Source of the DNA: a virus
IMG/VR virus record: IMGVR_UViG_3300020172_003216
Coordinates: 1-53,583 of that record
Reading direction: 5' to 3' (one strand)
DNA: 53,583 bases
Made by a program: the position numbers and the translations under genes. The notes beneath the pieces are model-generated. The model made no database searches. It worked only from the letters and a program-made list of their open reading frames with translations, and was not told the origin of the DNA. This document shows, in pieces, positions 15,240 through 52,657 of this stretch. Position 1 is the first letter of the stretch. Every line of letters starts with the position of its first letter.

Positions 15240-16346
15240 ATGATAGCGGTTTATACAGACAGTAAATTTTTTGATGATTACTGGTTAAATAAACTATCTT
15301 TTCCCTCGGAATATATTTTGTGTCATAGCAGGCATGAGTATAGTGCTGCACAAGCAAATAAAAAAATAGCTTTTACTACAGAACAGTTTGCACTAGATTA
15401 CGACATTGGTGATCCACCACGGCCACCTTGGCCATACTTGCCAAGACCAGACTTCCCTGATAAAATAAATGAATTAAGTTTGATCAGTGATTTAGTGTTT
15501 ACGTTCGGCGGCGAATTGCATAGCCATCAATGGGCAACCTGGGATAAATGTCATCATGATAATGTCTATTGGGTTATACCTGGGACCGTAACACAACCAT
15601 CGGTACTTAAAAACAATATTATTATATGGCATGATTGGTTACAGATTATAGCAAATTTATACAAAGATCATTGGCCCGACAAGTTAGCAGAAATTTCATA
15701 TAACTTACCTAAACCTAAATATTTTGATGCTTTATTAGGGCAGAAAAGAATCAACAGAGATGCAGTGTATGAGGGTGTTATTAATAATAACCTCCAAGAC
15801 AAATTTATAATGACATATTTAGGTGATGGCCCAATTACTGATAAAAGTGATTTTATATGGGAGAAAGACTGTTTCCCGGCTGAATCAAAAATGCATGGCA
15901 CAGTTAGTCGTTGTACATATAATGGTATAGAAATATTTTTAAGCAGAGTAATACCAATTGACGTTTTTAATCAAACAGCTTATAGTATAGTAGCTGAAAC
16001 TAATATAGATAATACAATAAGTTTTTATACAGAAAAAATTGCCAAGCCTATAATTGCCCGCAGACTGTTTGTGGTATTTACTGGTTATAAATTTTTAGAA
16101 AATTTGCGTAGTGCAGGATTTAAAACTTTTGATGGCATAATTGATGAAAGTTATGATCAGATATTAGATGATGTTGCTAGATATAGTGCAGCTATGGAAC
16201 AAGTAAAATTCTTATGCAATGCAGATCAAGTTAAAATATACAATAAAACAAAAGATATTCTTGAACATAACTACAATCTACTAACAGCAACTGACTGGAA
16301 TAAAGTAGTAATAGATCAGATCCAACAAAAAATAAATTCATTATGA
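15240..16346 (+). CDS. Glycosyltransferase-like protein (paralogue family, copy 1)
   Basis: A 368-residue soluble protein. The C-terminal third carries YTEKIAKPIIARRLFVVF followed by GFKTFDGIIDESYD. This matches the donor-binding end of GT-B type (fucosyltransferase/exostosin-like) glycosyltransferases: E-K-x2-K-P-x5-R/G, then a Gly-Phe-Lys-Thr-Phe-Asp block. Three more copies are in the window (16343, 24598, and 45459 on the minus strand). The acceptor is unknown. It follows iscA with no gap. The family assignment rests on the C-terminal signature only. Confidence 0.6.
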   Translation: MIAVYTDSKFFDDYWLNKLSFPSEYILCHSRHEYSAAQANKKIAFTTEQFALDYDIGDPPRPPWPYLPRPDFPDKINELSLISDLVFTFGGELHSHQWATWDKCHHDNVYWVIPGTVTQPSVLKNNIIIWHDWLQIIANLYKDHWPDKLAEISYNLPKPKYFDALLGQKRINRDAVYEGVINNNLQDKFIMTYLGDGPITDKSDFIWEKDCFPAESKMHGTVSRCTYNGIEIFLSRVIPIDVFNQTAYSIVAETNIDNTISFYTEKIAKPIIARRLFVVFTGYKFLENLRSAGFKTFDGIIDESYDQILDDVARYSAAMEQVKFLCNADQVKIYNKTKDILEHNYNLLTATDWNKVVIDQIQQKINSL

Positions 16347-17317
16347 TAGAAATTTCTGATGACAAAATTACTATAAGACCAGGTGCTTTTATTACTAAAA
16401 ATTATCAAACAATACAGCTACCACAATTGGAAGATGCTATTATACAAAATTATAGAGGGCAAGATTTAATTTTTGATGACTTCGATGGCACTAATATCAA
16501 GCTTCCTAACTTTATTAGTTGCGTGGATAATATTCGAACAGCACTAGACATTCCTATAGAGAAAATTTTATTCAAAACACAAATAAAACCGCCAGAACCG
16601 TATCATTGGATACCGCAACGGGACTATTATTTAATTCCAGACTTTGATCTTAATCAGTTTAATAAAGATTTATCAAATGCTAAATTTGTAGGGTGCCTTG
16701 GCGGCAGTCGTGCTAGTATGATGCGGGCCAGGATGTTGTATGAAATATTTGCCACATTTGGAGAAGACACTTTCTTAACTTGTGCTAAAGATTCATATAT
16801 TAATGCACTAAATTTCTGCAAATTCTTTAACGGGGAGTTTGTTTTTAATAAAGAAATTGATTGGATACAAAATAAACAGTTCAACAATGATATGCATGAG
16901 CATGGTCTTGACATGAATGTTGCGGCACAAGAATATCCAAAAATTTGGAATAAATTTAAAATTGAAGTAGTAATGGAAACTGATGAGTATCTCAGAGAAA
17001 GAATTACAGATAAACTAGCCAAAGTATTGTCAACTGGCAAACCCTTTGTGCTCTTAAGTGGCAAAGATTCTTTACAACATTTACAAGACTTAGGATTTAA
17101 AACTTTTTCTGATTGTTTGGACGAATCATATGATCAGTATTTGTTGCCATCATTGAGGATACGTGCTATAATAGATAGTCTAAATAAATTATATAATCGC
17201 CCGGACAGAGAAAGAATTATAGAAAATATGTATAATATTGCTCAGGAAAATATTAAAGTATATAACAAGATTTGCATAACAGATCCAACATCCAAAATGA
17301 AATATCTATTAAAATGA
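16343..17317 (+). CDS. Glycosyltransferase-like protein (paralogue family, copy 2)
   Basis: A 324-residue relative of the preceding gene. Its C-terminal signature is degenerate: ITDKLAKVLSTGKPFVLLSG followed by GFKTFSDCLDESYD. The N-terminal half differs and contains FVGCLGGSRASMMRARML, which resembles a Gly-rich loop. The start overlaps the copy-1 stop by 4 nt. Adjacent unequal paralogues suggest tandem duplication followed by divergence; the loss of the Pro after K suggests different specificity. Acceptor unknown. Confidence 0.55.
   Translation: MIEISDDKITIRPGAFITKNYQTIQLPQLEDAIIQNYRGQDLIFDDFDGTNIKLPNFISCVDNIRTALDIPIEKILFKTQIKPPEPYHWIPQRDYYLIPDFDLNQFNKDLSNAKFVGCLGGSRASMMRARMLYEIFATFGEDTFLTCAKDSYINALNFCKFFNGEFVFNKEIDWIQNKQFNNDMHEHGLDMNVAAQEYPKIWNKFKIEVVMETDEYLRERITDKLAKVLSTGKPFVLLSGKDSLQHLQDLGFKTFSDCLDESYDQYLLPSLRIRAIIDSLNKLYNRPDRERIIENMYNIAQENIKVYNKICITDPTSKMKYLLK
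17144..17172 (+). promoter_or_regulatory. Intragenic sigma70-like promoter
   Basis: TTGCCA (17144-17149), 17-nt spacer ending in TGC, TATAAT (17167-17172). It has the extended -10 of the other early promoters in the window. It lies inside the glycosyltransferase-like gene, 142 nt before the exonuclease start. Confidence 0.45.
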
Positions 17318-23762: not shown

Positions 23763-24601
23763 CAGCTCGAGCAGTATTTGTTGGTGGATACAGAATGGGA
23801 CATGCTATCATGTCCTTTCAATTTGACCACTTTCTTGAAGGCATAGATAAAACATATATTATCAGCAACATATCGGAACATCATTACCGAGCCACACTAG
23901 AAAAATATGTAGATGATCCCAGTAGATTTATATATGTAAATGATCAAGAATTAATTGATGCTTATCCTGAAATTTTACATTGGGATCAACCCGGAGACTA
24001 TCGCGGTACCTGGTTGAGACAACAGGCACTTAAAATTGCTTGTCTAGATTATTTTAACGAAGAATCATTTTTAATTCAAGACCCAGATACGTTTGCAATA
24101 CGGCCATACAAATGTTTTGATGGTAAAACACCTAATTTCTTTGTTTTACCCAACACTACACACAGTCCTGGTTATTATTCAGTAATTGAGGACAGTTTAG
24201 GCATAAAAAGACAGACAACAGACTGTTTTATTACAGAATTTTTACCTTTTCTTAAAGAAGATTGGGTAGCTATGCGCCAGCAGATAGAACAAAAACACAA
24301 CAAACATTTCCTTGATGCCATAATTGACAGTTGTCAGAGAGAAGCCGAAACTAACCTAATATGGTTTAGTGAATACGAATTGCTCGGCAATTATGCATTG
24401 ACCAGAAGAAACATAGATACGACTGTACAACATAGATGTGAAATAAGAAACATCGGAGATTTGTCGAAACTTAACAGTGTTGATTATAACTGTTATGTGG
24501 ATGCCTGTCCTAACTTAGATGACAGTATATTATTTGAATTTGTTTCTAACACTGTTATCAATTTTGATAAAATTTACAACGACATAGCCAGTCGTATATG
24601 A
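23759..24601 (+). CDS. DUF6492-like putative glycosyltransferase
   Basis: A 280-residue protein starting at TTG 23759, overlapping the nrdB stop by 4 nt; the only in-frame alternative is ATG 23795, which would remove the first beta strand RAVFVGGY. Features of the DUF6492 group include a D-x-D-type centre (LIQDPDTF), [22 protein letters not shown] and a late [13 protein letters not shown]. The group is annotated as glycosyltransferase-like. Target unknown. It is followed by another glycosyltransferase-like gene with a 4-nt overlap. Confidence 0.6.
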
Positions 24602-25731
24602 ATCAATTCAAGTATAAAATTTTTACGCTGCTACCTCCGCATGCAGCAATTGATTCTATGCCAGACTGGCAAGGAGAAGACTATCCTGCATTTGAGACCA
24701 CAGACGATTTACAAGAATGTCTAGCCCAACCTTACAAAGTGGCTGCTGTTCCAACACTGTTCAATCAACAAGGTGGGTATGCATATAACAGTGAACTTTG
24801 TTCAATTGATTGGAGCAAATTTGATCTTGTTATCCTGTCGGACATTGAAAACTCAACAACAGATGTTATTTTAGAACATGTACACAAAGCAAATATTCAA
24901 AATTATCTTGTTGCATTAGGAGGACTTACTGATCCTATTAGCGATGCAAACTTTGTTTATAGGCCGTGGTGGATATTTCAGCACATGCGATTGAATTCAT
25001 TTCGTCCTGGCACTACAAAAAAATCATTTTTATTTGAAGCACTGCTAGGAGCGCAAAAGATTCATAGATCTTATGTTATGTCTAGATTTAATCTTAAACA
25101 AGATATATTGCAGAAATCCGTAATCACTTATAGAAAAGAGTTTGGGTCCGATCAGCACGATCCCAAAATCTTTCTAGACAAGGAAGCAGCCGATGTTGTT
25201 AATAGCAATTTAATTTGGCCCTATATATCTCCCAATCTAGATCCTGCGTGGGAAGTGGCAAACGAAATTCGTCGAGACATCAGTGAAATCACACCTTGGG
25301 CTATTTACGATAGAACTTACTACAGTATTTGCTGCGAAACAATATTCCAACATCCTTCTCCTGACAGATACCAAGATCCAGGACCTTTTTTTATAACTGA
25401 AAAGACAGCCAAAGTATTGTTAGGGCAAAGATTGTTTATAATGTTTGGGCCACAGCATACTCTCAAATTTCTTAAAGAACTAGGATTTCAAACTTTTGAT
25501 AATGTGATTGACGAATCGTATGACAACTGCACAGATGCCAGTTCAAGATTTAAAATGGCATTTGATCAGGTGGAATATTTAAGCACACTAGATCCAGAAA
25601 CAGTAATGCAACAAACAGAACAAATTCGTTTGCACAATTACAATCATCTTTATCAATATCAAAAACAAACAAAAAATAAAATGCATCAGATGATCCTGGA
25701 CAAAATACCCGAGCAATTTAAATTTGCGTAA
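24598..25731 (+). CDS. Glycosyltransferase-like protein (paralogue family, copy 3)
   Basis: A 377-residue protein with the best-preserved form of the family ending: FFITEKTAKVLLGQRLFIMFG followed by GFQTFDNVIDESYD. It has no membrane segment. It follows the DUF6492-like gene, so two sugar-transfer proteins sit inside the nucleotide-metabolism block between nrdB and glutaredoxin. The acceptor could be virion protein, DNA or lipid; the sequence does not say. Same family as 15240, 16343 and 45459 (minus). Confidence 0.6.
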   Translation: MNQFKYKIFTLLPPHAAIDSMPDWQGEDYPAFETTDDLQECLAQPYKVAAVPTLFNQQGGYAYNSELCSIDWSKFDLVILSDIENSTTDVILEHVHKANIQNYLVALGGLTDPISDANFVYRPWWIFQHMRLNSFRPGTTKKSFLFEALLGAQKIHRSYVMSRFNLKQDILQKSVITYRKEFGSDQHDPKIFLDKEAADVVNSNLIWPYISPNLDPAWEVANEIRRDISEITPWAIYDRTYYSICCETIFQHPSPDRYQDPGPFFITEKTAKVLLGQRLFIMFGPQHTLKFLKELGFQTFDNVIDESYDNCTDASSRFKMAFDQVEYLSTLDPETVMQQTEQIRLHNYNHLYQYQKQTKNKMHQMILDKIPEQFKFA

Positions 25732-41534: not shown

Positions 41535-41876
41535 ATGAAGACGATATTAGCTGCCATCTTACTGGCCACAATAGCCTCGGCAGCTAACGCCGAACCTAGA
41601 TCCAGAAAACTGCAGAGTATGTGCGGTAGTTTTGAGGACGTAGAAGCAACCATGGAAAAATACGGCGAAAAGTTAATCATGGCTACTCAATCACCAAATG
41701 AGCAGACTGTGAACTTGGTTTATGTTAATTTTGAAACAGAAACCACAAGTTGGTTTATACATGATTTGCAAACCAACGAATATTGTATGGTAGGAGTAGG
41801 CAAAAAGATCTATATACCAGATGAAAGTCCATTGAAACAAGGTACAGCATTTGGAATTAAAACAATTTTTAAGTAA
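41535..41876 (+). CDS. Small secreted protein, unknown
   Basis: A 113-residue protein with a signal peptide (MKTILAAILLATIASAANA) and two Cys after it (QSMCGSF, EYCMVG), consistent with one disulfide. Third exported protein in a row. Overlaps the following desaturase by 1 nt. Function unknown. Confidence 0.7.
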   Translation: MKTILAAILLATIASAANAEPRSRKLQSMCGSFEDVEATMEKYGEKLIMATQSPNEQTVNLVYVNFETETTSWFIHDLQTNEYCMVGVGKKIYIPDESPLKQGTAFGIKTIFK

Positions 41877-42616
41877 TGTGGCTTAACTTAACTGTTTTTC
41901 TAATATTGCTAACAATAAGTAATCTGGCAGTAACAGTTTACTTGCACAGAGTTCTGACACATAGAAGTATTAGATTACATCGATCATTAGAACATTTTTT
42001 TAGATTAGCACTCTGGATGCTTACCCCATTTCCTCCCAAGATTTGGGTAGCAGTCCATAGATATCATCATAAAACAGCAGATAGCAAACGAGATCCTCAT
42101 AGCCCTATACATACAGGGTTCTGGCCAATTATGATCAAAAGTGCGATCTTTAATATAAAACAAAATTTAGGTACAGCACTGCCTCAGATTGTCCAACTTT
42201 ATTCTAAAGATCTCAAAGATTCTAAATTAGAAACTTTCTATTTAAATCATCCATACTTAGGAAAATTTATTTTGTTAGTTCCTGTTGTATCATTGTGTGG
42301 CGTTGGTTGGGGGATTGTTATTTGGTTAGGTGCAATATCATGGATGCATTTAATGGAAGAGAGAATTCATGTTGTGTTAGGTCATTATTTTGGATATAGA
42401 AATTTTAATACAAACGACAATTCTAAAAATATTATACCATGGGCGTTTTTTTTATTTGGTGAGGAATTGCATAATAATCATCATGCCAAACAAAACGATT
42501 GGTCTTTTAGATCAAAATGGTATGAAATTGATCCAGCAGCAATTTTTATACAACTTTGTATATGGTTAAAATTAGCGTATCCACTGAATAAAAACAAAAC
42601 TAGTGAACCTCTTTAA
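41876..42616 (+). CDS. Second fatty-acid desaturase
   Basis: A 246-residue membrane di-iron desaturase with boxes HRVLTHRS (residue ~24), HRYHHKT (~62) and EELHNNHH (~196). It has an extra acidic insert (DLKDSKLETFYLNHP) that the first desaturase (594-1295) only partly shares. Both keep the VAVHR and GEELHNNHH blocks, so they are paralogues with possibly different positional or chain specificity. The gene runs into a terminator that overlaps its stop codon. Confidence 0.87.
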   Translation: MWLNLTVFLILLTISNLAVTVYLHRVLTHRSIRLHRSLEHFFRLALWMLTPFPPKIWVAVHRYHHKTADSKRDPHSPIHTGFWPIMIKSAIFNIKQNLGTALPQIVQLYSKDLKDSKLETFYLNHPYLGKFILLVPVVSLCGVGWGIVIWLGAISWMHLMEERIHVVLGHYFGYRNFNTNDNSKNIIPWAFFLFGEELHNNHHAKQNDWSFRSKWYEIDPAAIFIQLCIWLKLAYPLNKNKTSEPL

Positions 42617-43863: not shown

Positions 43864-44703
43864 ATGATTTTATCAAAAAAGATTATAGCCAATTATCAAC
43901 CAATGCTGAATGATCATGCTAGAAACGCATGGTTCAAAAAACATATTCAAAATTTGGCGTTAAATAAAACCTTTGTTGATGTTGGTGCCGGCACTGGAAT
44001 TTTATCTGCTTATGCATTGGAAGCTGGGGCAAAGCATGTGCATGCCATTGAAATAAACAAAGAAGCTTCAACGGTGGGCAAACACATATTGTCCAATATA
44101 GGTTATAGCGATAGATTGACTTGGACAAACAATGATTTTAAACAGGTTGATATAAAAACAGCTGATATAGTTATTGCAGAACAAGTAGGTCCTGCATTGT
44201 TTGACGAACTGCAATTAGATATTTGGAAACATTACAATAAAGTTTTGAGTCAAGATTATATTTCTATTCCCGATGAACTGTGTGTAGACCTGTATATATA
44301 CGCAGGAGACCGAACAATGTTTGTTGATCAATGTATACAAGACGACGAGACTTTACCACACGGATTTTATGCAATGTTAGAAAAACTAAGCATACGTCCA
44401 GATAAGATAATCAAGAATTTTATTTCTATAACAAACAAGTCGATGAATTTAGAAAAAATTGAACAAACGATCATGTTAGATTCTTTTGATCAAGCAACCT
44501 TAGTGTTTGTAAACAAAATAGGATACCAGAAAGATTATCTTTATTTAACTCGCTCGTCAACGCAACCCTGGAGATTTCCTCCTAGACTGTTGATAACAGA
44601 TTGTTCTCAACCACTACGCATATATTGGAATCCTGCACTTTCCAATATAGAGAATCCCTGCGATACCTTGTATAAGGGATATTGGAATAGCGAGCCAGTT
44701 TAA
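43864..44703 (+). CDS. PRMT-like SAM methyltransferase
   Basis: A 279-residue protein built like a protein arginine methyltransferase. It has the N-terminal YQPMLNDHARNAWFKK element, then VDVGAGTGILSAYALEAGAKHV (SAM-binding motif I, residues 38-60) and AIEIN (E63, ribose-binding). Next comes AEQVGPALFDELQLD, which resembles the double-Glu loop of PRMTs, and a beta-rich C-terminal part. PRMTs are common in eukaryotes but rare in bacteria and phages. The substrate is unknown; other Rossmann methyltransferases remain possible. Confidence 0.65.
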   Translation: MILSKKIIANYQPMLNDHARNAWFKKHIQNLALNKTFVDVGAGTGILSAYALEAGAKHVHAIEINKEASTVGKHILSNIGYSDRLTWTNNDFKQVDIKTADIVIAEQVGPALFDELQLDIWKHYNKVLSQDYISIPDELCVDLYIYAGDRTMFVDQCIQDDETLPHGFYAMLEKLSIRPDKIIKNFISITNKSMNLEKIEQTIMLDSFDQATLVFVNKIGYQKDYLYLTRSSTQPWRFPPRLLITDCSQPLRIYWNPALSNIENPCDTLYKGYWNSEPV

Positions 44704-44723: not shown

Positions 44724-45458
44724 ATGAAATTTTTATTATTCTTATTATTATTTCCCACGTTAGTTCAGTCGGTTAATATTGATGCAAAAGCATGGGCCAT
44801 TGCCGATGGTGCCGGAAATGTGATTGAAGAACTCAATATTGAAACTGTACAGCCAATTGCCAGCATCACCAAGTTAATGACTGTGATGGTAGTTCTTGAC
44901 AGCAACGAAAGTTTAACTGAATTTACAAAACTAAACAAATTTCGCGGTATGAGTATTACCAGACAGCAATTGATTGATCTTGCAATGGTACGTAGCGACA
45001 ACGATGCTGCCACTATGCTTTGTAAAATTTACAGACGTGGATACAACGGTTGCATTGAAGACATGAATCATAAAGCAAAGGTGCTTGGTATGAACAATAC
45101 CGCATTTTATGACAGTACTGGTTTAGACAATCGTAATGTCAGTAATGCATCGGACTTATTAAGATTGCTGTTAGCGGCTGAAAAATACACAACTATAGTA
45201 AACGCAAGCAACCACAGCATCATCGAGTTGGTTAAGAAAAAAAGAAAACTAAGATTTGCAAATACAAATCCTCTAGTATCCAAGTATAACGTAATTGTCA
45301 GTAAAACAGGTTATGTGAGATTAAGCGGAGGTTGTTTAGTAATGAGCGCCTTTATTAAAGGACAAAAAAGATTGTTTGTTGTTTTAAACAGTAAGACAAC
45401 ACGAACAAGAATACATGATATGGAAACTCTTATTTTAGATACCATTACTAAAACTTAG
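44724..45458 (+). CDS. D-Ala-D-Ala carboxypeptidase (PBP5/6, S11 family)
   Basis: A 244-residue protein with a signal peptide (MKFLLFLLLFPTLVQS) and all S11 motifs: SITK (S47-x2-K50), SDN (91-93) and KTG (194-196). The family trims D-Ala from peptidoglycan stem peptides or acts as an endopeptidase. The C-terminal beta domain and membrane anchor of cellular PBP5 are absent. A phage copy may prepare the wall for lysis or alter cross-linking. Its stop is adjacent to the stop of the convergent minus-strand gene. Confidence 0.88.
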   Translation: MKFLLFLLLFPTLVQSVNIDAKAWAIADGAGNVIEELNIETVQPIASITKLMTVMVVLDSNESLTEFTKLNKFRGMSITRQQLIDLAMVRSDNDAATMLCKIYRRGYNGCIEDMNHKAKVLGMNNTAFYDSTGLDNRNVSNASDLLRLLLAAEKYTTIVNASNHSIIELVKKKRKLRFANTNPLVSKYNVIVSKTGYVRLSGGCLVMSAFIKGQKRLFVVLNSKTTRTRIHDMETLILDTITKT

Positions 45459-46703
45459 TTATTCCAATAGAAGCTTTTTGACATTGTCAAAATTAACTTG
45501 GTGTGCCGGAACCTGTCTCCAGTCTGACAGATGCAAATTATATTTTTTTAGACAGCCTTCAAAATTATCAACTAATTCATTGACAATAATTTCTTTAAAT
45601 TTACCATAAAAATGTTGATGATTAAATTCTAAGATATCTGTCATATCGTTGTACATACTAGATAATTCTTCCGATGACATTTTACAAAGATTTTGTAATT
45701 GTTCAACAATCAATGCAATTCTTCGATCATCGTCTTGTTCGTCATCATAACTCTCGTCAATGTATTTGTCAAAAGTTTTAAAACCGTATCTCTTAAGATA
45801 AGCAAGATTTCCTGGTGATGATACTAGTATAAACGGTCTACGAGTAGCAATAGGTTTAAATATTTTTTCTGTCAGGTGTAGTTTATCATCATAAAAATTT
45901 GTTTCTGTAACTACGTTCCAAAGAGCGTTATGATGAAAATCACTTATTTCGGCGCTGGCATTATTATAATTACTATTAGAATCTAAGATAACAGGTTGAG
46001 CCGTTGGCATCAAGTGATTTAAAATATGTTTTTTGGTTTTTACACTAAGTCTAGAATTTGGATCAGTAATTTCTTTTTTTATGACATCCTTAGTTAATAA
46101 CGGAGCTGACACATATCCAAATTGTTCTAATTTTTTCTCTCGTAAATTAGAGAGCAAGTTTAATCTATAACTACGATTATTATTAATCAAATGATTTAAG
46201 CAAATAAATACTTTATTGATAGCGCAGTGTTTGAAAGTCAAATATTTATAATTTCGAAACCAGTCTAATGCAGCAAATCCATGAAAGAAAAAATACCAAT
46301 CGTATAAAGGATATTCCTTTAAAAATTGTTTCTTCAACGGACTAATTTCAGAATTAGCAAAAATATGTATATTGCAATCATACATTCCACTTCTACATGA
46401 TGGCATATAAGGTGTATCAGGCGAAGTGTGGTATTCTGCAGCAATGTATATTAGCAATTCTGGTATATAGATATTATAATATTGTAATTTGTGCAAATCT
46501 ATGCTATTTAGGGGCTCTTCGTACCAAAGAATACATCTACCGGCTTGTCTTCCGGCTTCTCCGGTACAATAAGGGTGCCAAAAAAGATATCTAAAATCTT
46601 TTATATCAGTTGAATAACTAGGATCATATCCCCATGATTTTATTAATAACGGAGATAAAAGTTGTTCATGTATAATATTTTTAAATTTTTCAACGGAGAA
46701 CAT
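45459..46703 (-). CDS. Glycosyltransferase-like protein (paralogue family, copy 4)
   Basis: The only minus-strand gene. A 414-residue protein with the family ending LTEKIFKPIATRRPFILVSS followed by GFKTFDKYIDESYD, the clearest match to the signature. The N-terminal ~290 residues are unlike the other copies and rich in Tyr, Asn and His. Its stop abuts the stop of the carboxypeptidase, and its start codon lies 2 nt from the start of the sugar dehydrogenase on the other strand. Inversion or independent acquisition is likely. Confidence 0.65.
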   Translation of the reverse strand: MFSVEKFKNIIHEQLLSPLLIKSWGYDPSYSTDIKDFRYLFWHPYCTGEAGRQAGRCILWYEEPLNSIDLHKLQYYNIYIPELLIYIAAEYHTSPDTPYMPSCRSGMYDCNIHIFANSEISPLKKQFLKEYPLYDWYFFFHGFAALDWFRNYKYLTFKHCAINKVFICLNHLINNNRSYRLNLLSNLREKKLEQFGYVSAPLLTKDVIKKEITDPNSRLSVKTKKHILNHLMPTAQPVILDSNSNYNNASAEISDFHHNALWNVVTETNFYDDKLHLTEKIFKPIATRRPFILVSSPGNLAYLKRYGFKTFDKYIDESYDDEQDDDRRIALIVEQLQNLCKMSSEELSSMYNDMTDILEFNHQHFYGKFKEIIVNELVDNFEGCLKKYNLHLSDWRQVPAHQVNFDNVKKLLLE

Positions 46704-46705
46704 AA

Positions 46706-47932
46706 ATGAATGTGGGTTTTATAGGTTTAGGTAAATTAGGACTGCCGTGTGCAGAAACTATAGCTGAAAAACATTCGGTTACTGGATATGATATTTACTC
46801 AAAGACAAGTGATAGAATTAAAATATCTGACAGCTTACGAGGAGCAGTAGCAGGCAAAGATATTATATTTGTTGCCGTGCAAACGCCACACGATCCTGAT
46901 TATGATGGTTCAAAACCAATAACACATTTACCAAATAAAGATTTTGATTATACCACTGTAAAAGAAGTTTTAAAACAAATTGATGCATGGGCTGCACCTG
47001 AACAGTTGGTAGTTCTTATTAGTACAGTATTACCTGGTACTGTACGCAGAGAACTTAGAGATTGTATTACTGTACCTCGTTTTATCTACAATCCTTATCT
47101 TATTGCAATGGGTAGTGTAGAATGGGATATGGTCAATCCTGAAATGGTAATTATTGGTACAGAAGATGGTAGTGAAACTGGCGATGCGGATATCTTAATT
47201 AATTTTTATAAATCATTAATGAAAAACAATCCTAGATATGTTGTAGGAACATGGGATGAAGCAGAGTCGATTAAAATATTTTATAATACCTTTATTAGCA
47301 CCAAAGTTGGTTTAGTAAACATGATTCAAGACGTAGCAATGAAAAATGGTAATATAAATGTTGATGTAGTAACCCAAGCACTTGCTAACAGTACTATTAG
47401 GATAATGAGTTCAAAATACATGACTGCTGGAATGGGTGATGCAGGTCCCTGCCATCCAAGAGATAACATTGCGCTACGTTGGCTAGCAGAAAATCTTCAT
47501 CTAGGCTATGATATATTTGATACTGTGATGCATGCTAGAGAACAACAAGCAAAAAATCTAGCTAGATATCTAAAAAAAATACAGATACAAAAAAATCTTC
47601 CTATTTTTATTCTTGGCAAGGCATACAAACCAGATGTGGACTATTGTGATGGTAGTTATAGTTTATTGATAGGACACTATCTAGATGAAATACAAGCGAA
47701 GTATTTTTTCATTGATCCGTTAACTGGCGATAAACCGCCTTTTGAAGAAATTCCTGTTATAGCATTTTTAGCACACAATAGATTTATTACATATGGGTAT
47801 ACTGGAGATCAACCGCAGCAAGAATTATACATTAATCTAGAACCAGGCAGTGTCGTAGTAGACCCTTGGAGACAATATAGCACCAATCAAGATATAGAGG
47901 TAATACACTATGGCAACACACGAATCCTTTGA
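46706..47932 (+). CDS. UDP-/GDP-sugar 6-dehydrogenase
   Basis: A 408-residue NAD-dependent dehydrogenase. GFIGLGKLGLP (residues 4-14) is the Rossmann dinucleotide loop, VAVQTPHD the sugar-binding region, K200 is in the central helix, and C249 in AGPCHPRDN is the catalytic cysteine (usual form GGxCxPKD). The family oxidises UDP-glucose or GDP-mannose to the uronate. It heads the decoration cassette, with an oxygenase gene overlapping its 3' end. ATG 46706 is 2 nt from the divergent start; ACGGAGAAC precedes. Confidence 0.88.
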   Translation: MNVGFIGLGKLGLPCAETIAEKHSVTGYDIYSKTSDRIKISDSLRGAVAGKDIIFVAVQTPHDPDYDGSKPITHLPNKDFDYTTVKEVLKQIDAWAAPEQLVVLISTVLPGTVRRELRDCITVPRFIYNPYLIAMGSVEWDMVNPEMVIIGTEDGSETGDADILINFYKSLMKNNPRYVVGTWDEAESIKIFYNTFISTKVGLVNMIQDVAMKNGNINVDVVTQALANSTIRIMSSKYMTAGMGDAGPCHPRDNIALRWLAENLHLGYDIFDTVMHAREQQAKNLARYLKKIQIQKNLPIFILGKAYKPDVDYCDGSYSLLIGHYLDEIQAKYFFIDPLTGDKPPFEEIPVIAFLAHNRFITYGYTGDQPQQELYINLEPGSVVVDPWRQYSTNQDIEVIHYGNTRIL

Positions 47933-48425
47933 GTTAGCAAAATTTTGGGATGATGAATTTAAAAATTTAAATTACGTCAAAGAAAAATTTAACGATCCTG
48001 CAACTCAAATTGAATGGGAGGATGCAGGATTCAGAGGACCGTTTGGCGGATGTATGTGTGATATGCGTAATCCTCAACCAAGCTGGAACAAACAATTTGT
48101 TGATTTCTTTAAGCGTTATGAACACTGGAAGGATATTGGTACAAGTTATTATCGCATGGATCCTGGCAGCAGTTTACCTAATCATGTTGATACGTATAGA
48201 AAATATATAGATCTTTTTGAACTCAAAGGAAAAGAAAGTTCAATTAGACGTGCAGTAATATTTTTAGAAGATAGAAAACCTGGGCACTTTGCAGAATGTC
48301 AAGGAGTTGGGTATGCAGATTGGAAAGCAGGATTTACCTTGGTATGGCCGTGGGATGCTCCGCACAGCGCATTTAACATGGGTTTTGAACCACGATATAC
48401 CCTTCAGATCACTGGGCATTTATGA
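47910..48425 (+). CDS. 2-oxoglutarate/Fe(II) oxygenase (Asp/Asn hydroxylase-like)
   Basis: A 171-residue protein with the complete residue set: H92-x-D94 (LPNHVDTYRKY), H152 (DAPHSAFNMG) and R162 (EPRYTLQITG), as in the aspartyl/asparaginyl beta-hydroxylase cupin group. It would hydroxylate a protein, sugar or amino-acid residue using Fe(II), O2 and 2-oxoglutarate. It overlaps the sugar dehydrogenase by 23 nt and the amidinotransferase by 4 nt. A candidate relative lies at 8568-9164. Confidence 0.72.
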   Translation: MATHESFELAKFWDDEFKNLNYVKEKFNDPATQIEWEDAGFRGPFGGCMCDMRNPQPSWNKQFVDFFKRYEHWKDIGTSYYRMDPGSSLPNHVDTYRKYIDLFELKGKESSIRRAVIFLEDRKPGHFAECQGVGYADWKAGFTLVWPWDAPHSAFNMGFEPRYTLQITGHL

Positions 48426-49339
48426 TATACAGTATCAATGAATGGGATCCACTTCATGAAGTAGTTGTTGGTACCGCTGACTTTGCCAATTGGCCAACTG
48501 CGGATCCTGTGTTTAGTTTAGAAAGCCAAAAAACTACTTGGACAGAAACCGCAGTTCCAAGTGGTCCAGTTCCTGATTGGATAATTGATGAAGCAAATGA
48601 AGACCTGGATATATTGGCCAATACATTAGATCAACTAGGCGTAGTGGTACATAGACCCAAAGTTAAAAACTATCAACAAATTGACGGTATGTACAACTAT
48701 TGTCCACGGGATAGATTGTTAATACACGGTAGTACTGTGGTTGATCCAGCAATGATGTATCCCTGTAGAGATGTTGAAATTGAATCCTTGGATTTTGTAA
48801 TTTATAGAGCAGATGATGTTTACAAGATGCCTAGAGATGCGGGCATGATTTTAGATGCCGCTAATGTTTTACGGCTCAATGATACTATGCTATACTTACA
48901 AAGTGCTAGCGGAAATCACAAAGCAGCTCAATGGTTGCAGTATAAATTTCCTGATGTTCGAGTTGAAGTTTGCGAATTTTATTCAGGAGTGCATATTGAC
49001 AGCACTATAGTTCCGTTGAGAGAAGGCCTAGTGCTAGTTAACGCCAGTAGAGTTAATATGCACAATTTGCCCAGGGTATTCGATAATTGGGAAGTTGTTT
49101 GGATTGATGACGTAGTGGCACAAGATTTTTATCAATATCCTTATGCCAGCAAATGGATAGCACTGAACATGCTAGTAGTAGATCCGTATACTGTTATTGT
49201 TGACAAACAGCAAACAATGTTGATTGATATATTGGAAAATTATAATTTTACCGTAATACCCTTGGAATTGCGACATTCTAGAACACTGGGCGGTGGGTTC
49301 CATTGCGTTACGTTGGATTTATTACGTCAAACTCAATAA
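48422..49339 (+). CDS. Amidinotransferase (glycine amidinotransferase-like)
   Basis: A 305-residue protein with the amidinotransferase fold motifs. It starts INEWDPLHEVVVG; then D97 lies in CPRD and D145 in MILDAANVL; H191 is in GVHIDST; and C295 is in GGGFHCVTL. The Cys-His-Asp set matches the GATM/StrB group, which moves an amidino group from arginine to an amine. In a decoration cassette, it could create guanidino-sugars or modified residues. The usual DAAD motif is DAAN here. Substrate unknown. Confidence 0.85.
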   Translation: MIYSINEWDPLHEVVVGTADFANWPTADPVFSLESQKTTWTETAVPSGPVPDWIIDEANEDLDILANTLDQLGVVVHRPKVKNYQQIDGMYNYCPRDRLLIHGSTVVDPAMMYPCRDVEIESLDFVIYRADDVYKMPRDAGMILDAANVLRLNDTMLYLQSASGNHKAAQWLQYKFPDVRVEVCEFYSGVHIDSTIVPLREGLVLVNASRVNMHNLPRVFDNWEVVWIDDVVAQDFYQYPYASKWIALNMLVVDPYTVIVDKQQTMLIDILENYNFTVIPLELRHSRTLGGGFHCVTLDLLRQTQ

Positions 49340-49342
49340 ATA
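49335..49342 (+). promoter_or_regulatory. Possible late promoter box
   Basis: AATAAATA spans the amidinotransferase stop, 27 nt before ATG 49370. Confidence 0.35.
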
Positions 49343-49369
49343 ACTACACAACAAAAAATAAAGGTTATC

Positions 49370-50110
49370 ATGAGCTTTGAGAGTTATACAGATTGTTTGT
49401 TTAGAGCATTTGAATCGCATACAAAACCAGCAGAAATAATTAAGCGTAAAAAAGAAATAATTGATGGTGTTGCAGGGTTCCACAATTATGTACCAGATTC
49501 GATATTGTTTGTTGGATTTAGTCCCGCAATCTTGGCAAGCAATTGCAAGAGCTTGTCAGTTACTGAAATAAGCAATGAAGCAAAAAATTTACTTGATTCT
49601 TACAATATAAAGTATAACTATATTGACAAGAAAGATTTAATAAATTATCAAAGATCTTTTGATGTGGTTGTTGCTCTAGATGAATACTTTACATTTGCTG
49701 AATCAGATTTGGCCCAAAAAAACAAAGTCATTGAGATTTGTAATCTAGCTAAAGAATATGTGATAACTACGTGTAAGGATTACAAAAATCAAGATTTCAA
49801 AGACAAAGAGTTTTCCATTCCTGCTCTAATTAGAGGATCAAAAGTTAATCATGTTTATTTAGAATTTCACGATTACGATCTTCAAGACAGAAATAAATGG
49901 ATTACAAAAGTTCATGAAATAATCAATAATCAACTAGTTAATTCTGGACCATTTGATCGTAGATCGATGTTTTTTAAACAGCTTGCGAAATTTAGTGCAG
50001 ATGCAGGAGCAGTTGGTTTTAGCGTACATAAAAATTTAATGTACAAGAGTTTAATCAAGAAAAATTACGAACATGTAATTAGTATTCAATTAGATAATAA
50101 TGGACCTTAA
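49370..50110 (+). CDS. Possible SAM methyltransferase, degenerate
   Basis: A 246-residue protein with Rossmann-like rhythm: ILFVGFSPAI (motif I position, with the Gly-rich loop reduced), LSVTEISNEAKNLL (E after beta 2), then FDVVVALDEYFTFAE and EYVITTCKDY. That is consistent with a class I methyltransferase whose loop has lost glycines. The C-terminal part carries SVHKNLMYKSLIKKNYEHV. It lies before a fibre gene with an 11-nt overlap. The activity is uncertain. Confidence 0.5.
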   Translation: MSFESYTDCLFRAFESHTKPAEIIKRKKEIIDGVAGFHNYVPDSILFVGFSPAILASNCKSLSVTEISNEAKNLLDSYNIKYNYIDKKDLINYQRSFDVVVALDEYFTFAESDLAQKNKVIEICNLAKEYVITTCKDYKNQDFKDKEFSIPALIRGSKVNHVYLEFHDYDLQDRNKWITKVHEIINNQLVNSGPFDRRSMFFKQLAKFSADAGAVGFSVHKNLMYKSLIKKNYEHVISIQLDNNGP

Positions 50111-51359
50111 CGAAAATATAAGTCAAATTGTTGATCAAATAGTAGGAGAAATTACAACAAATGTTTCGACACGAGTTGACAAGTTAATTCTAGACGCCAT
50201 CTCTTCTCGTCTAGACTCGTTTGATTACAATACACACGTACAGCAGGCCGCTAATGCTGCGCTTGATAAAAAAGCATCTCAATATACGATTGATAATAAA
50301 AAATTAGAAAAACGTATTACTGACCGAATTAATGAAACAATTGATGGCGCTCAATCATCTACCGCTGAGTTGGTGAACAAAATTGTTTCTGAGAAACTTG
50401 AAAAAATTAATGTTAATCAAGCTGTAACTGATGCAACTGCTGCTTTAATTATAGACAGATTACGTGATATAACTTTTCCGGAAGATAGTATCAATCCAAC
50501 TGCTTTAAAATTAAATGAACTGATAATTACTGGAGATAACGTCAGAGGTGGTTTAATAGAAAATTTTAGTAGTACGGGTATTGACGATCGTGCTACAGGA
50601 GTTGCTCTAACTATATTAGATGATGCCACTGTAATTGAAAACAATTTATTAACTAAAGATTTAACAGTTGAAGGATTGGTTTCTATTAACGGTAATCTTT
50701 CAGTGAATGGCCAAGTGGATAAAGATTGTTTATTTTATACCGATTTGATTAAAGAAACTACCACTTCAGCTTTGTCAAATATGGATAGAGGATTGTTTGA
50801 CAGTTTTAGTTCTTTGGTATTTGATAGAATTAAAACTGAAGGTTTAAATTTAACTAAAATAAAATTAAACGATAATGAAGTCATAAGTGATAATCGACTT
50901 GGTTCCACTATCATAAGCAGTAATCTACAACATCTTGGAATTCTTAAAGAATTACAAGTAAGTGGCGAATCTCTATTTGCCGAAACACTTTATATAACGC
51001 CAAAACGAGTAGGTATAAACACCATTGAACCAAGTGGCGCATTAGCTATTTGGGATCAAGAAGTTGAAATAGTGTTTAACAAAAAATCAGCGGACGTTGG
51101 TAGCATTGGTACTCCCCGAAAACAAAAACTAATACTGACTTCAAATGGTAAGGAAAACATTCTATTAGATGATGATGGTTCTGTAAATATAAACAATTTA
51201 AAAATTGGCGGAATGAGATTTACTGCTGCATCAGAGCCACCTAGTTATGTAAGTCAAAAAGGTCATGTGGTTTGGAATACCAATCCCAATCTTGGAGGTC
51301 CACTAGGGTGGGTGTGTCTTGGCGCATCCAACTGGGCCAACTTTGGAATAATAGACTAA
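50100..51359 (+). CDS. Tail-fibre/baseplate protein
   Basis: A 419-residue protein. The first ~120 residues are helical and may form a trimeric coiled coil. Repeating beta segments follow (LTVEGLVSINGNLSVNGQV), then RVGINTIEPSGALAIWD, a pattern common in fibre shafts, and a C-terminal block with GWVCLGASNWANFGIID. It ends with a 1-nt overlap to the fourth radical-SAM gene. It is the most likely substrate or neighbour for the decoration genes. Confidence 0.75.
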   Translation: MDLNENISQIVDQIVGEITTNVSTRVDKLILDAISSRLDSFDYNTHVQQAANAALDKKASQYTIDNKKLEKRITDRINETIDGAQSSTAELVNKIVSEKLEKINVNQAVTDATAALIIDRLRDITFPEDSINPTALKLNELIITGDNVRGGLIENFSSTGIDDRATGVALTILDDATVIENNLLTKDLTVEGLVSINGNLSVNGQVDKDCLFYTDLIKETTTSALSNMDRGLFDSFSSLVFDRIKTEGLNLTKIKLNDNEVISDNRLGSTIISSNLQHLGILKELQVSGESLFAETLYITPKRVGINTIEPSGALAIWDQEVEIVFNKKSADVGSIGTPRKQKLILTSNGKENILLDDDGSVNINNLKIGGMRFTAASEPPSYVSQKGHVVWNTNPNLGGPLGWVCLGASNWANFGIID

Positions 51360-52657
51360 TGCCAAATAAAGATATTTTTTGTGCCATTCCGTGGCATACT
51401 TCTCACCTCTATTGGGACGGCTATTATGGTGCATGTTGTGAGGAACGATTTAAACCAAATGGAGAAGTAAAGAATATAAGCGAAGTAGGACTAGATGAGT
51501 GGTACAATAGTTCTGCTATGCGTAATTTTCGATTGCGTATACTTGGTGATGTTAAATTGCCCGAATGTGCAAGCTGTTATAAAAATGAATTGCACGGACA
51601 CGAAAGTAAAAGAGTTAGAGAAAATTTCAAAGTTGGAATTTTTACAAAACAAGCATTTGAAAAAAGTTTTTTGCAAAGTCCGTGGTATGAAAAATTCAAA
51701 GAATCTGCCAATGAAGGATTAACAGATTGTCGCCCAATTGATTTACATATAGATTTTGGAAATCAATGCAACCTTGCCTGCAAGATGTGTACTCCTAGCG
51801 CAAGCAGTCGTATAGCACAACAGTATGATTCCTGGAAAATTTCTTTTGATAAAAGACCAAATTGGTCGGATTCCGAAGAGTCTTATCAGCAGTTGTTGAA
51901 AAATATCAAAGGTATTAAAAAAATTCATAGAATACATATAATGGGCGGAGAGCCTACTATTAACAAAAAATTTTATAAATTTTTAGATTGGTTACTAAAC
52001 AACAATTTGCAAGATGTAAGTTTGAGCTTTGTTAGTAATGGAACACAATTCAAAAGTGAACTTGTTGAAAAACTGTTGAAGTTTCAATCAGTTGATGTTG
52101 AAATTAGTCTTGAAAGCGTAGGCGATAACAATCACTATATAAGACAAGGCAGCGAAACAAAACAAACACTAGAAAACATTTATAAACTTTTAAATAGTCG
52201 ATCTAGTTCTTTAAACGTGGTATTACGTAGTGTGCCGCAGCTTCTTAATGTCAATAACTACCATGAGTATATAAAATTTGCATATACGAATAAAATAAGC
52301 ATACAAAGTATTCCTTTAACAGCACCAAACTATCTTGCAATTGGGGTACTACCTAAAAAAATAAGACAAAGTTTGGTTGATAACTATCAAAAAGTGAAAC
52401 AAGAAATACTAGAGAATGTTGAAAATACACAGACTCTTACAACAGGTAGAGATACATCAAGACTTGAACAACAACTTGCCAAGGAATGCGATACAGTTAT
52501 AAGTCTACTGGAACAGCCAGAACCGAACAATCTAGCCGAATTACAACAAGAACTGGTAAAGTGGTTATTAAAATGGGACAAAGTATACAATCTTGACGCA
52601 ACAAAGATCTATCCAGAATACAGTGAATTTTTAAAAGACCGTGGATACCAGCTTTAA
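51359..52657 (+). CDS. Radical SAM protein with N-terminal Cys module (paralogue of 4669-5790)
   Basis: A 432-residue protein. The start at 51359 overlaps the fibre stop (TAATG), and the longer frame from 51272 lies inside the fibre gene. The N-terminal Cys module is C8, C26-C27, C70, C73 (CAIPWH, YGACCEE, ECASC). The core motif is C137-x3-C141-x2-C144 (CNLACKMC), then IMGGEPTI. It shares the architecture of the protein at 4669-5790. The C-terminal ~120 residues are helical. Substrate unknown; being next to a fibre gene suggests a protein-modifying role. Confidence 0.85.
   Translation: MPNKDIFCAIPWHTSHLYWDGYYGACCEERFKPNGEVKNISEVGLDEWYNSSAMRNFRLRILGDVKLPECASCYKNELHGHESKRVRENFKVGIFTKQAFEKSFLQSPWYEKFKESANEGLTDCRPIDLHIDFGNQCNLACKMCTPSASSRIAQQYDSWKISFDKRPNWSDSEESYQQLLKNIKGIKKIHRIHIMGGEPTINKKFYKFLDWLLNNNLQDVSLSFVSNGTQFKSELVEKLLKFQSVDVEISLESVGDNNHYIRQGSETKQTLENIYKLLNSRSSSLNVVLRSVPQLLNVNNYHEYIKFAYTNKISIQSIPLTAPNYLAIGVLPKKIRQSLVDNYQKVKQEILENVENTQTLTTGRDTSRLEQQLAKECDTVISLLEQPEPNNLAELQQELVKWLLKWDKVYNLDATKIYPEYSEFLKDRGYQL

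Follow-up and report, generated by a model that had tools for sequence, protein, structure and literature searches.

A candidate sugar-tailoring gene module beside a separable fiber unit in uncultured T4-type phages

Organization of the locus

We analyzed a 53,583-base record from an uncultured virus (IMGVR_UViG_3300020172_003216; the window refers to this whole stretch), in which a row of genes encodes a glycosyltransferase-like protein (GT), a member of the nucleotide-sugar 6-dehydrogenase superfamily (DH), an Fe(II)/2-oxoglutarate (2OG) oxygenase (OX), an amidinotransferase (AT), a methyltransferase-fold protein (MT), a fiber-like protein (FIB), and a radical S-adenosylmethionine (SAM) protein (Table 1). 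The GT and DH genes diverge from start codons that stand back to back, 2 nt apart. From DH onward, successive plus-strand junctions are a 23-nt overlap, a 4-nt overlap, a 30-nt gap, and overlaps of 11, 1, and 17 nt, the last with an open reading frame (ORF) that begins at 52641. A first-pass annotation of the window had proposed this gene row, with five of six plus-strand junctions overlapping and a 30-nt gap after AT; all of these features were found where it placed them, and its gene identities are supported by domain, profile, fold, and invariant-residue evidence, tentatively so for GT and FIB. The radical SAM gene starts with the ATG at 51359, one base inside the FIB stop codon, and lies beyond the end given in that annotation (51359); an alternative start, TTG at 51272, falls upstream of the conserved domain.

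Table 1. Coordinates of the core genes, the fiber unit, and related features in the window
Feature	Position	Strand	Remarks
GT, glycosyltransferase-like (GT-B-like fold)	45459..46703	-	Divergent from DH; cassette copy of a large family
DH, nucleotide-sugar 6-dehydrogenase superfamily, Tyr131 replacing the catalytic Glu	46706..47932	+	Pfam PF03721/PF00984
OX, Fe(II)/2OG oxygenase, weakly AspH-like	47910..48425	+	Invariant HxD...H...R set
AT, amidinotransferase, StrB1/AGAT (pentein) type	48422..49339	+	Profile match to StrB1
ATAAATA, predicted T4-type late-promoter core	49336..49342	+	34 nt upstream of the MT start codon
MT, methyltransferase-fold protein, degenerate SAM loop	49370..50110	+	Predicted structure, Foldseek; obligate FIB neighbor
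FIB, fiber-like protein	50100..51359	+	C-terminal motif common with an annotated tail fiber
Radical SAM protein with twitch/SPASM domain	51359..52657	+	NF033640; variable member
GT-family paralogue	15240..16346	+	Hidden Markov model (HMM) E 7e-76
GT-family paralogue	16343..17317	+	HMM E 3e-28
GT-family paralogue	24598..25731	+	HMM E 6e-49

A conserved core and a separable fiber unit

A scan of virus contigs yielded 149 AT relatives, 80 of which were retrieved for gene-order comparison. The order GT (minus strand)–DH–OX–AT, hereafter the core, is the rule among ≈100 distinct AT loci on virus contigs, the longest of 374 kb, that are assigned as T4-type from relatives of terminase, capsid, protease, gp13, and polymerase genes. 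Because this order recurs in so many distinct loci, the gene row is not a chance arrangement. Among the 97 distinct AT genes with more than 4.2 kb of upstream sequence, OX is present in 93, DH in 90, and GT in 84. The neighbor of MT is FIB in 67 of 68 cases. Of the 78 distinct AT loci with enough downstream sequence, 54 have the pair after AT and 21 have no FIB. Conversely, five contigs, two of them large (355 and 158 kb), carry MT–FIB with neither AT nor any GT-family gene. On the AT tree, the MT–FIB label changes 3 times, versus 24 with shuffled labels.

ATAAATA is the core of the T4 late promoter. In the window this heptamer occurs at 12 sites, mostly just upstream of plus-strand genes and once in the AT–MT gap, versus a shuffled expectation of 26, a pattern that would fit a motif used as a late promoter at these sites and avoided at others. 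Among relatives, ATAAATA lies upstream of MT in 50 of 70 genes, versus 0/97 for OX, 1/103 for AT, 3/95 for DH, 0/74 for FIB, and 2% of random windows; the full TATAAATA late-promoter motif is found upstream of MT in only 5 of the 70. The heptamer occupies 47 of 64 AT–MT junctions versus none of 34 other AT junctions, and it also precedes MT in four of the five loci that have MT–FIB only. TATAAT shows a modest excess upstream of DH (26/79 versus 5%). We did not count as a promoter the ATAAATA at −95/−96 of 14 GT genes, which overlaps the opposite-strand DH coding sequence (probably GYDIY codons).

Since MT is preceded by a late-promoter motif of its own and each unit is found without the other, we regard MT–FIB as a separate, predicted late unit that follows a core with expression of its own. 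The distribution of the genes among genomes, together with the placement of the promoter motif, likewise led us to reject MT and FIB as parts of a sugar pathway. The single decoration cassette ending in a fiber gene, as originally proposed, is therefore replaced by two units, and the question posed with it, whether these genes are scattered in relatives, receives a divided answer: MT–FIB is scattered with respect to the core, whereas GT–DH–OX–AT stays together.

Catalytic residues of DH, OX, and AT

As judged by alignment, every catalytic residue tested in DH, OX, and AT appears intact in relatives, with the exception of one glutamate in DH. DH belongs to phrog_9148 and harbors UDPG_MGDP_dh domains (PF03721/PF00984). 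Like the UDP-glucose 6-dehydrogenases, it has Rossmann and central domains and an invariant catalytic Cys, Lys, Asn, and Asp; G7 and G9 of the NAD-binding GxG motif, K190, N194, C249, and D253 are conserved in 96 of 96 sequences. It differs in that Glu161 of human UDP-glucose dehydrogenase, in the NPEFL loop, aligns with Tyr131, and this residue is Tyr in all 96 sequences and in all 107 readable sequences of a further DH scan. The E161Q mutant of the human enzyme was crystallized with a thiohemiacetal intermediate (PMC3184952). We thus place DH in the superfamily, where it would not be classed as a UDP-glucose 6-dehydrogenase. Because the phage enzyme is without a glutamate needed for normal UDP-glucose dehydrogenase turnover, the uronate product suggested in the first-pass annotation becomes doubtful; DH might not yield a uronate, or might reach one by another route, which we offer as a lead rather than a result.

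All 99 OX sequences keep the iron triad and the 2OG-binding Arg (H92, D94, H152, and R162). The family gives weak matches to PF05118 (AspH) in 16 of 36 members (best E 0.0047), and the window protein itself gives none, nor a match to any other family. Profile searches of the PDB with OX, MT, GT, and FIB returned no relatives. The same type of search with AT retrieved StrB1 (1bwd) at E 3.7e-86, followed by HsvA, SxtG, and glycine amidinotransferase (AGAT). StrB1 amidinates an amino-cyclitol; AGAT and HsvA act on non-sugar amines. AT resembles this family in its full-length profile match and in the same Asp-His-Cys triad (D145, H191, and C295, invariant in 96 of 96), and differs in being ≈40 residues shorter and in forming a phage clade, to which bacterial relatives show only 25 to 39% identity. 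For Campylobacter phage CP220, the possibility of an OX homologue next to AT was checked and rejected. As a separate observation, bacterial StrB-like genes in six loci from several phyla are followed by a gene of 1400 to 1700 residues and often preceded by one of 338 to 342 residues.

GT represents a divergent, multicopy family

GT has no match in a Pfam search, and none of 31 members of its family matches Glyco_transf_10 (GT10). An AlphaFold2 (AF2) model of GT (predicted local distance difference test score, pLDDT, 86.9) retrieves mostly GT-B enzymes from the PDB, with weak statistics (best E 1.5e-3, template modeling score, TM, ≈0.3). Matches in BFVD include viral glycosyltransferases and one protein named UDP-glucose/GDP-mannose dehydrogenase, and the strong ones are only to unnamed phage proteins. 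Residues E63, R180, E267, T278-E279-K280, P284, and D320 are kept in 83 to 84 of 84 relatives.

The window encodes four members of this family, and large relatives harbor up to 14 matches each. Some copies in the large relatives lie beside terminase (terL), sheath, gp13, capsid (gp23), and fiber-like genes, and others are found in islands where radical SAM, SGNH-like, carbamoyltransferase-like, and epimerase-like genes abound. All AT-bearing large contigs tested have the cassette-type GT (at least 300 bits), one of them at a distance from the cassette, and this is the only type that tracks AT. We rejected the simpler rule that any GT-family gene marks the cassette, as AT-less genomes have distant GT copies.

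Two further arrangements of this family were observed. In loci L202 to L221, the series of T4-type structural genes is interrupted by GT-family genes that are paired with genes for SGNH-like proteins (GDSWTYGDSLG) and radical SAM proteins. In three loci (L208, L216, and L218), a GT-family gene stands back to back with a large ORF (610–1199 residues, MFDVFYxGxKP), with nearly zero intergenic space.

Linkage of the core genes in other settings

We collected DH loci, comprising 33 AT-less ones from a DH-profile scan and 27 of pelagiphage type. In 25 of the former 33, DH has a GT-family gene only a few genes away, and several of the remaining loci end short upstream. The BFVD protein named as a dehydrogenase, A0A6J5TB28 (788 residues), matches the GT model over 358 columns, which suggests a candidate DH–GT fusion. 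AT-less large contigs harbor no DH and no cassette-type GT, although some have distant GT paralogues.

The OX–AT pair also recurs. In cyanophage S-SCSM2R, an OX homologue directly precedes an AT homologue with a 4-nt overlap, within a glycan cluster of glycosyltransferases and a radical SAM gene; this cluster differs from the window in having no adjoining annotated DH and no GT or FIB of the cassette families. A Bdellovibrionota contig carries OX–AT together with a GT relative and an aminotransferase-like gene, with UvrC nearby. A second type of AT occurs in six genomes, in five of which its gene directly adjoins two GT paralogues. From these arrangements, OX–AT is probably an add-on pair to a DH–GT linkage. 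One contig from a metagenome-assembled genome looks like a misbinned phage and serves as context only.

MT, FIB, and the radical SAM protein

An AF2 model of MT (pLDDT 93) adopts a class I methyltransferase fold in Foldseek searches (best E 2.4e-10, TM 0.66), with matches to TylM1, CalS10, CgnL, and CypM; these fold neighbors are sugar N-methyltransferases and natural-product methyltransferases. The SAM loop is degenerate (VGFxPAIL rather than glycine-rich), and the conserved acidic residue after strand 2 is absent from the corresponding alignment columns. FIB shares a C-terminal motif with the “tail fiber” gp27 of cyanophage Bellamy in a short match (E 7.5e-4), and short motifs of FIB also recur, with weak E-values, in ORFs of 1000 to 2500 residues in relatives. 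The radical SAM protein matches NF033640 at 271 bits (cut-off 170), and its gene is placed between OX and AT or between DH and OX in some relatives. Mean identity among relatives is lowest for GT (0.34) and FIB (0.41), versus 0.56 to 0.67 for DH, OX, and AT.

Relation to known phage systems

Phages are already known to modify DNA, host O-antigen, and certain virions with sugars, and the glycosylation of DNA, host, and virion and the roles of phage glycosyltransferases have been reviewed (PMC12619734). Dehydrogenases of the DH family occur in phages Bellamy and HTVC008M, whose clusters, in contrast to the core, combine them with carbamoyltransferase and NadE-like genes and contain neither AT nor a cassette-family GT. 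Mycobacteriophages are described as encoding glycosyltransferases that act on virion proteins (Freeman 2023, as cited in PMC12619734). The likeness of that system to the core is one of functional analogy only. We know of no amidinotransferase or oxygenase donor pathway in mycobacteriophage virion glycosylation. In the open-licence literature we found no published phage system with this gene set and no phage amidinotransferase system, which agrees with the claim of the first-pass annotation and is not proof of novelty; phage sugar modification with both an amidinotransferase and a 2OG oxygenase among its enzymes is apparently undescribed.

Proposed function and alternatives

On balance, we lean toward the view that the core is a conserved sugar-tailoring module that makes and transfers an unusual, guanidine-bearing sugar and adjoins a separable late fiber unit. 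DH would oxidize C6 of a nucleotide-activated hexose, AT would amidinate an amine of the sugar building block with arginine as the amidino donor, OX would hydroxylate this building block or the residue to which it is attached, and the divergent GT-B-like enzyme would transfer the finished sugar. MT, FIB, and often the radical SAM protein would represent a late-transcribed fiber gene with a dedicated methyltransferase-fold partner. That AT has a sugar as its acceptor, in what order the enzymes act, and which donor and target they use is our inference. The sugar-making and sugar-attaching role, which the first-pass annotation had also proposed, is favored because several independent contexts show linkage among the AT, DH, and GT genes; virion proteins seem the most likely target because some of the GT paralogues in large relatives lie close to genes for capsid, terminase, and sheath.

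Several observations weigh against this proposal. The cassette encodes no aminotransferase to provide the amine, and the Tyr-for-Glu change leaves the DH product uncertain. The similarity of GT to solved structures is weak, with a low TM, and many GT copies sit in other islands, away from structural genes. DH of the 27 pelagiphage-type loci is accompanied by different genes, none of them a GT of the cassette family. Finally, the lack of a late-promoter motif before DH, OX, and AT, together with the TATAAT excess before DH, suggests earlier expression, which fits modification of DNA or the envelope as well. A more specific form of the proposal, which we consider rather unlikely, is that the dehydrogenase without its usual Glu forms no uronate but a C6 aldehyde or thioester, which it releases or passes on, and that many lineage-specific GT copies spread the guanidino-sugar over several virion proteins.

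The foremost alternative, itself doubtful, is remodeling of the host envelope, in which the infecting phage would place the sugar on host lipopolysaccharide, capsule, or lipid, e.g., as a barrier to superinfection. This would account for the exported or envelope genes just upstream (a D-Ala-D-Ala endopeptidase at 44724–45458 and a desaturase-like gene at 41876–42616), for the lipid-remodeling-like metallophosphoesterase and GT4-type genes downstream in some relatives, and for the missing late-promoter motif at DH, OX, and AT; however, the cassette contains neither flippase nor polymerase, and GT paralogues also lie beside structural genes.

We give little credence to the model of the first-pass annotation, a single system whose product decorates the adjoining fiber FIB. 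The frequent placement of MT–FIB after AT, a second GT-family gene nearby downstream in 25 of the FIB-bearing loci, and the divergence of GT and FIB, as expected of a co-varying acceptor and transferase, are in its favor, but the separate late-promoter motif before MT, the 355- and 158-kb contigs with MT–FIB and without AT or family GT, and the roughly one in four loci whose core has no FIB all weigh against it. It is similarly improbable that OX and AT modify amino acids or protein side chains (e.g., lysine to homoarginine, or a hydroxylated residue) rather than a sugar. The weak resemblance of OX to AspH, a family with protein and amino-acid substrates, and the matches of AT to AGAT and HsvA, with their non-sugar amines, are consistent with this route, whereas the recurrent AT–GT and DH–GT linkage and the cyclitol substrate of StrB1, the nearest solved relative of AT, point to a sugar.

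Least probable, and in our view very unlikely, is DNA hypermodification with a sugar placed on a modified base: GT-B folds serve known phage DNA glucosyltransferases, and the core genes are probably not expressed late, but OX resembles AspH, if anything, rather than JBP/TET types, many divergent GT copies would be odd for a single substrate, and the occurrence of thymidylate synthase/hydroxymethylase family genes, examined as a possible sign of DNA modification, does not follow that of the cassette (none was found in four cassette-bearing genomes, and two cassette-free ones have them).

If the sugar-tailoring proposal is correct, a positively charged guanidino-sugar would alter particle adsorption, stability, or recognition. 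The set offers four testable enzymes, and the natural active-site change in the DH family bears on the mechanism of UDP-glucose dehydrogenase. It also serves to recognize a broad group of large T4-type phages, as yet uncultured, from fresh and marine waters.

Neighboring genes

The window also encodes a ribonucleotide reductase and a DnaB-type replicative helicase, in keeping with the T4-type assignment of these viruses. The endopeptidase just upstream of the cassette, a D-alanyl-D-alanine endopeptidase of family S11, occupies this position in many relatives. It is preceded by a methyltransferase (43864–44703) with PRMT-like features (YxxML, VGAGTGILS, and a possible double-E loop), which matches Pfam PrmA above cut-off and PRMT5 weakly and is rare among relatives. 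The desaturase-like gene at 41876–42616 and another at 594–1295 encode two fatty-acid desaturase-like proteins (phrog_35201). Downstream of the cassette in four loci and others, a metallophosphoesterase (c38, 264 residues) is followed by a GT4-type gene (c34, 331 residues), a pair that resembles lipid-remodeling pairs known from phosphate starvation.

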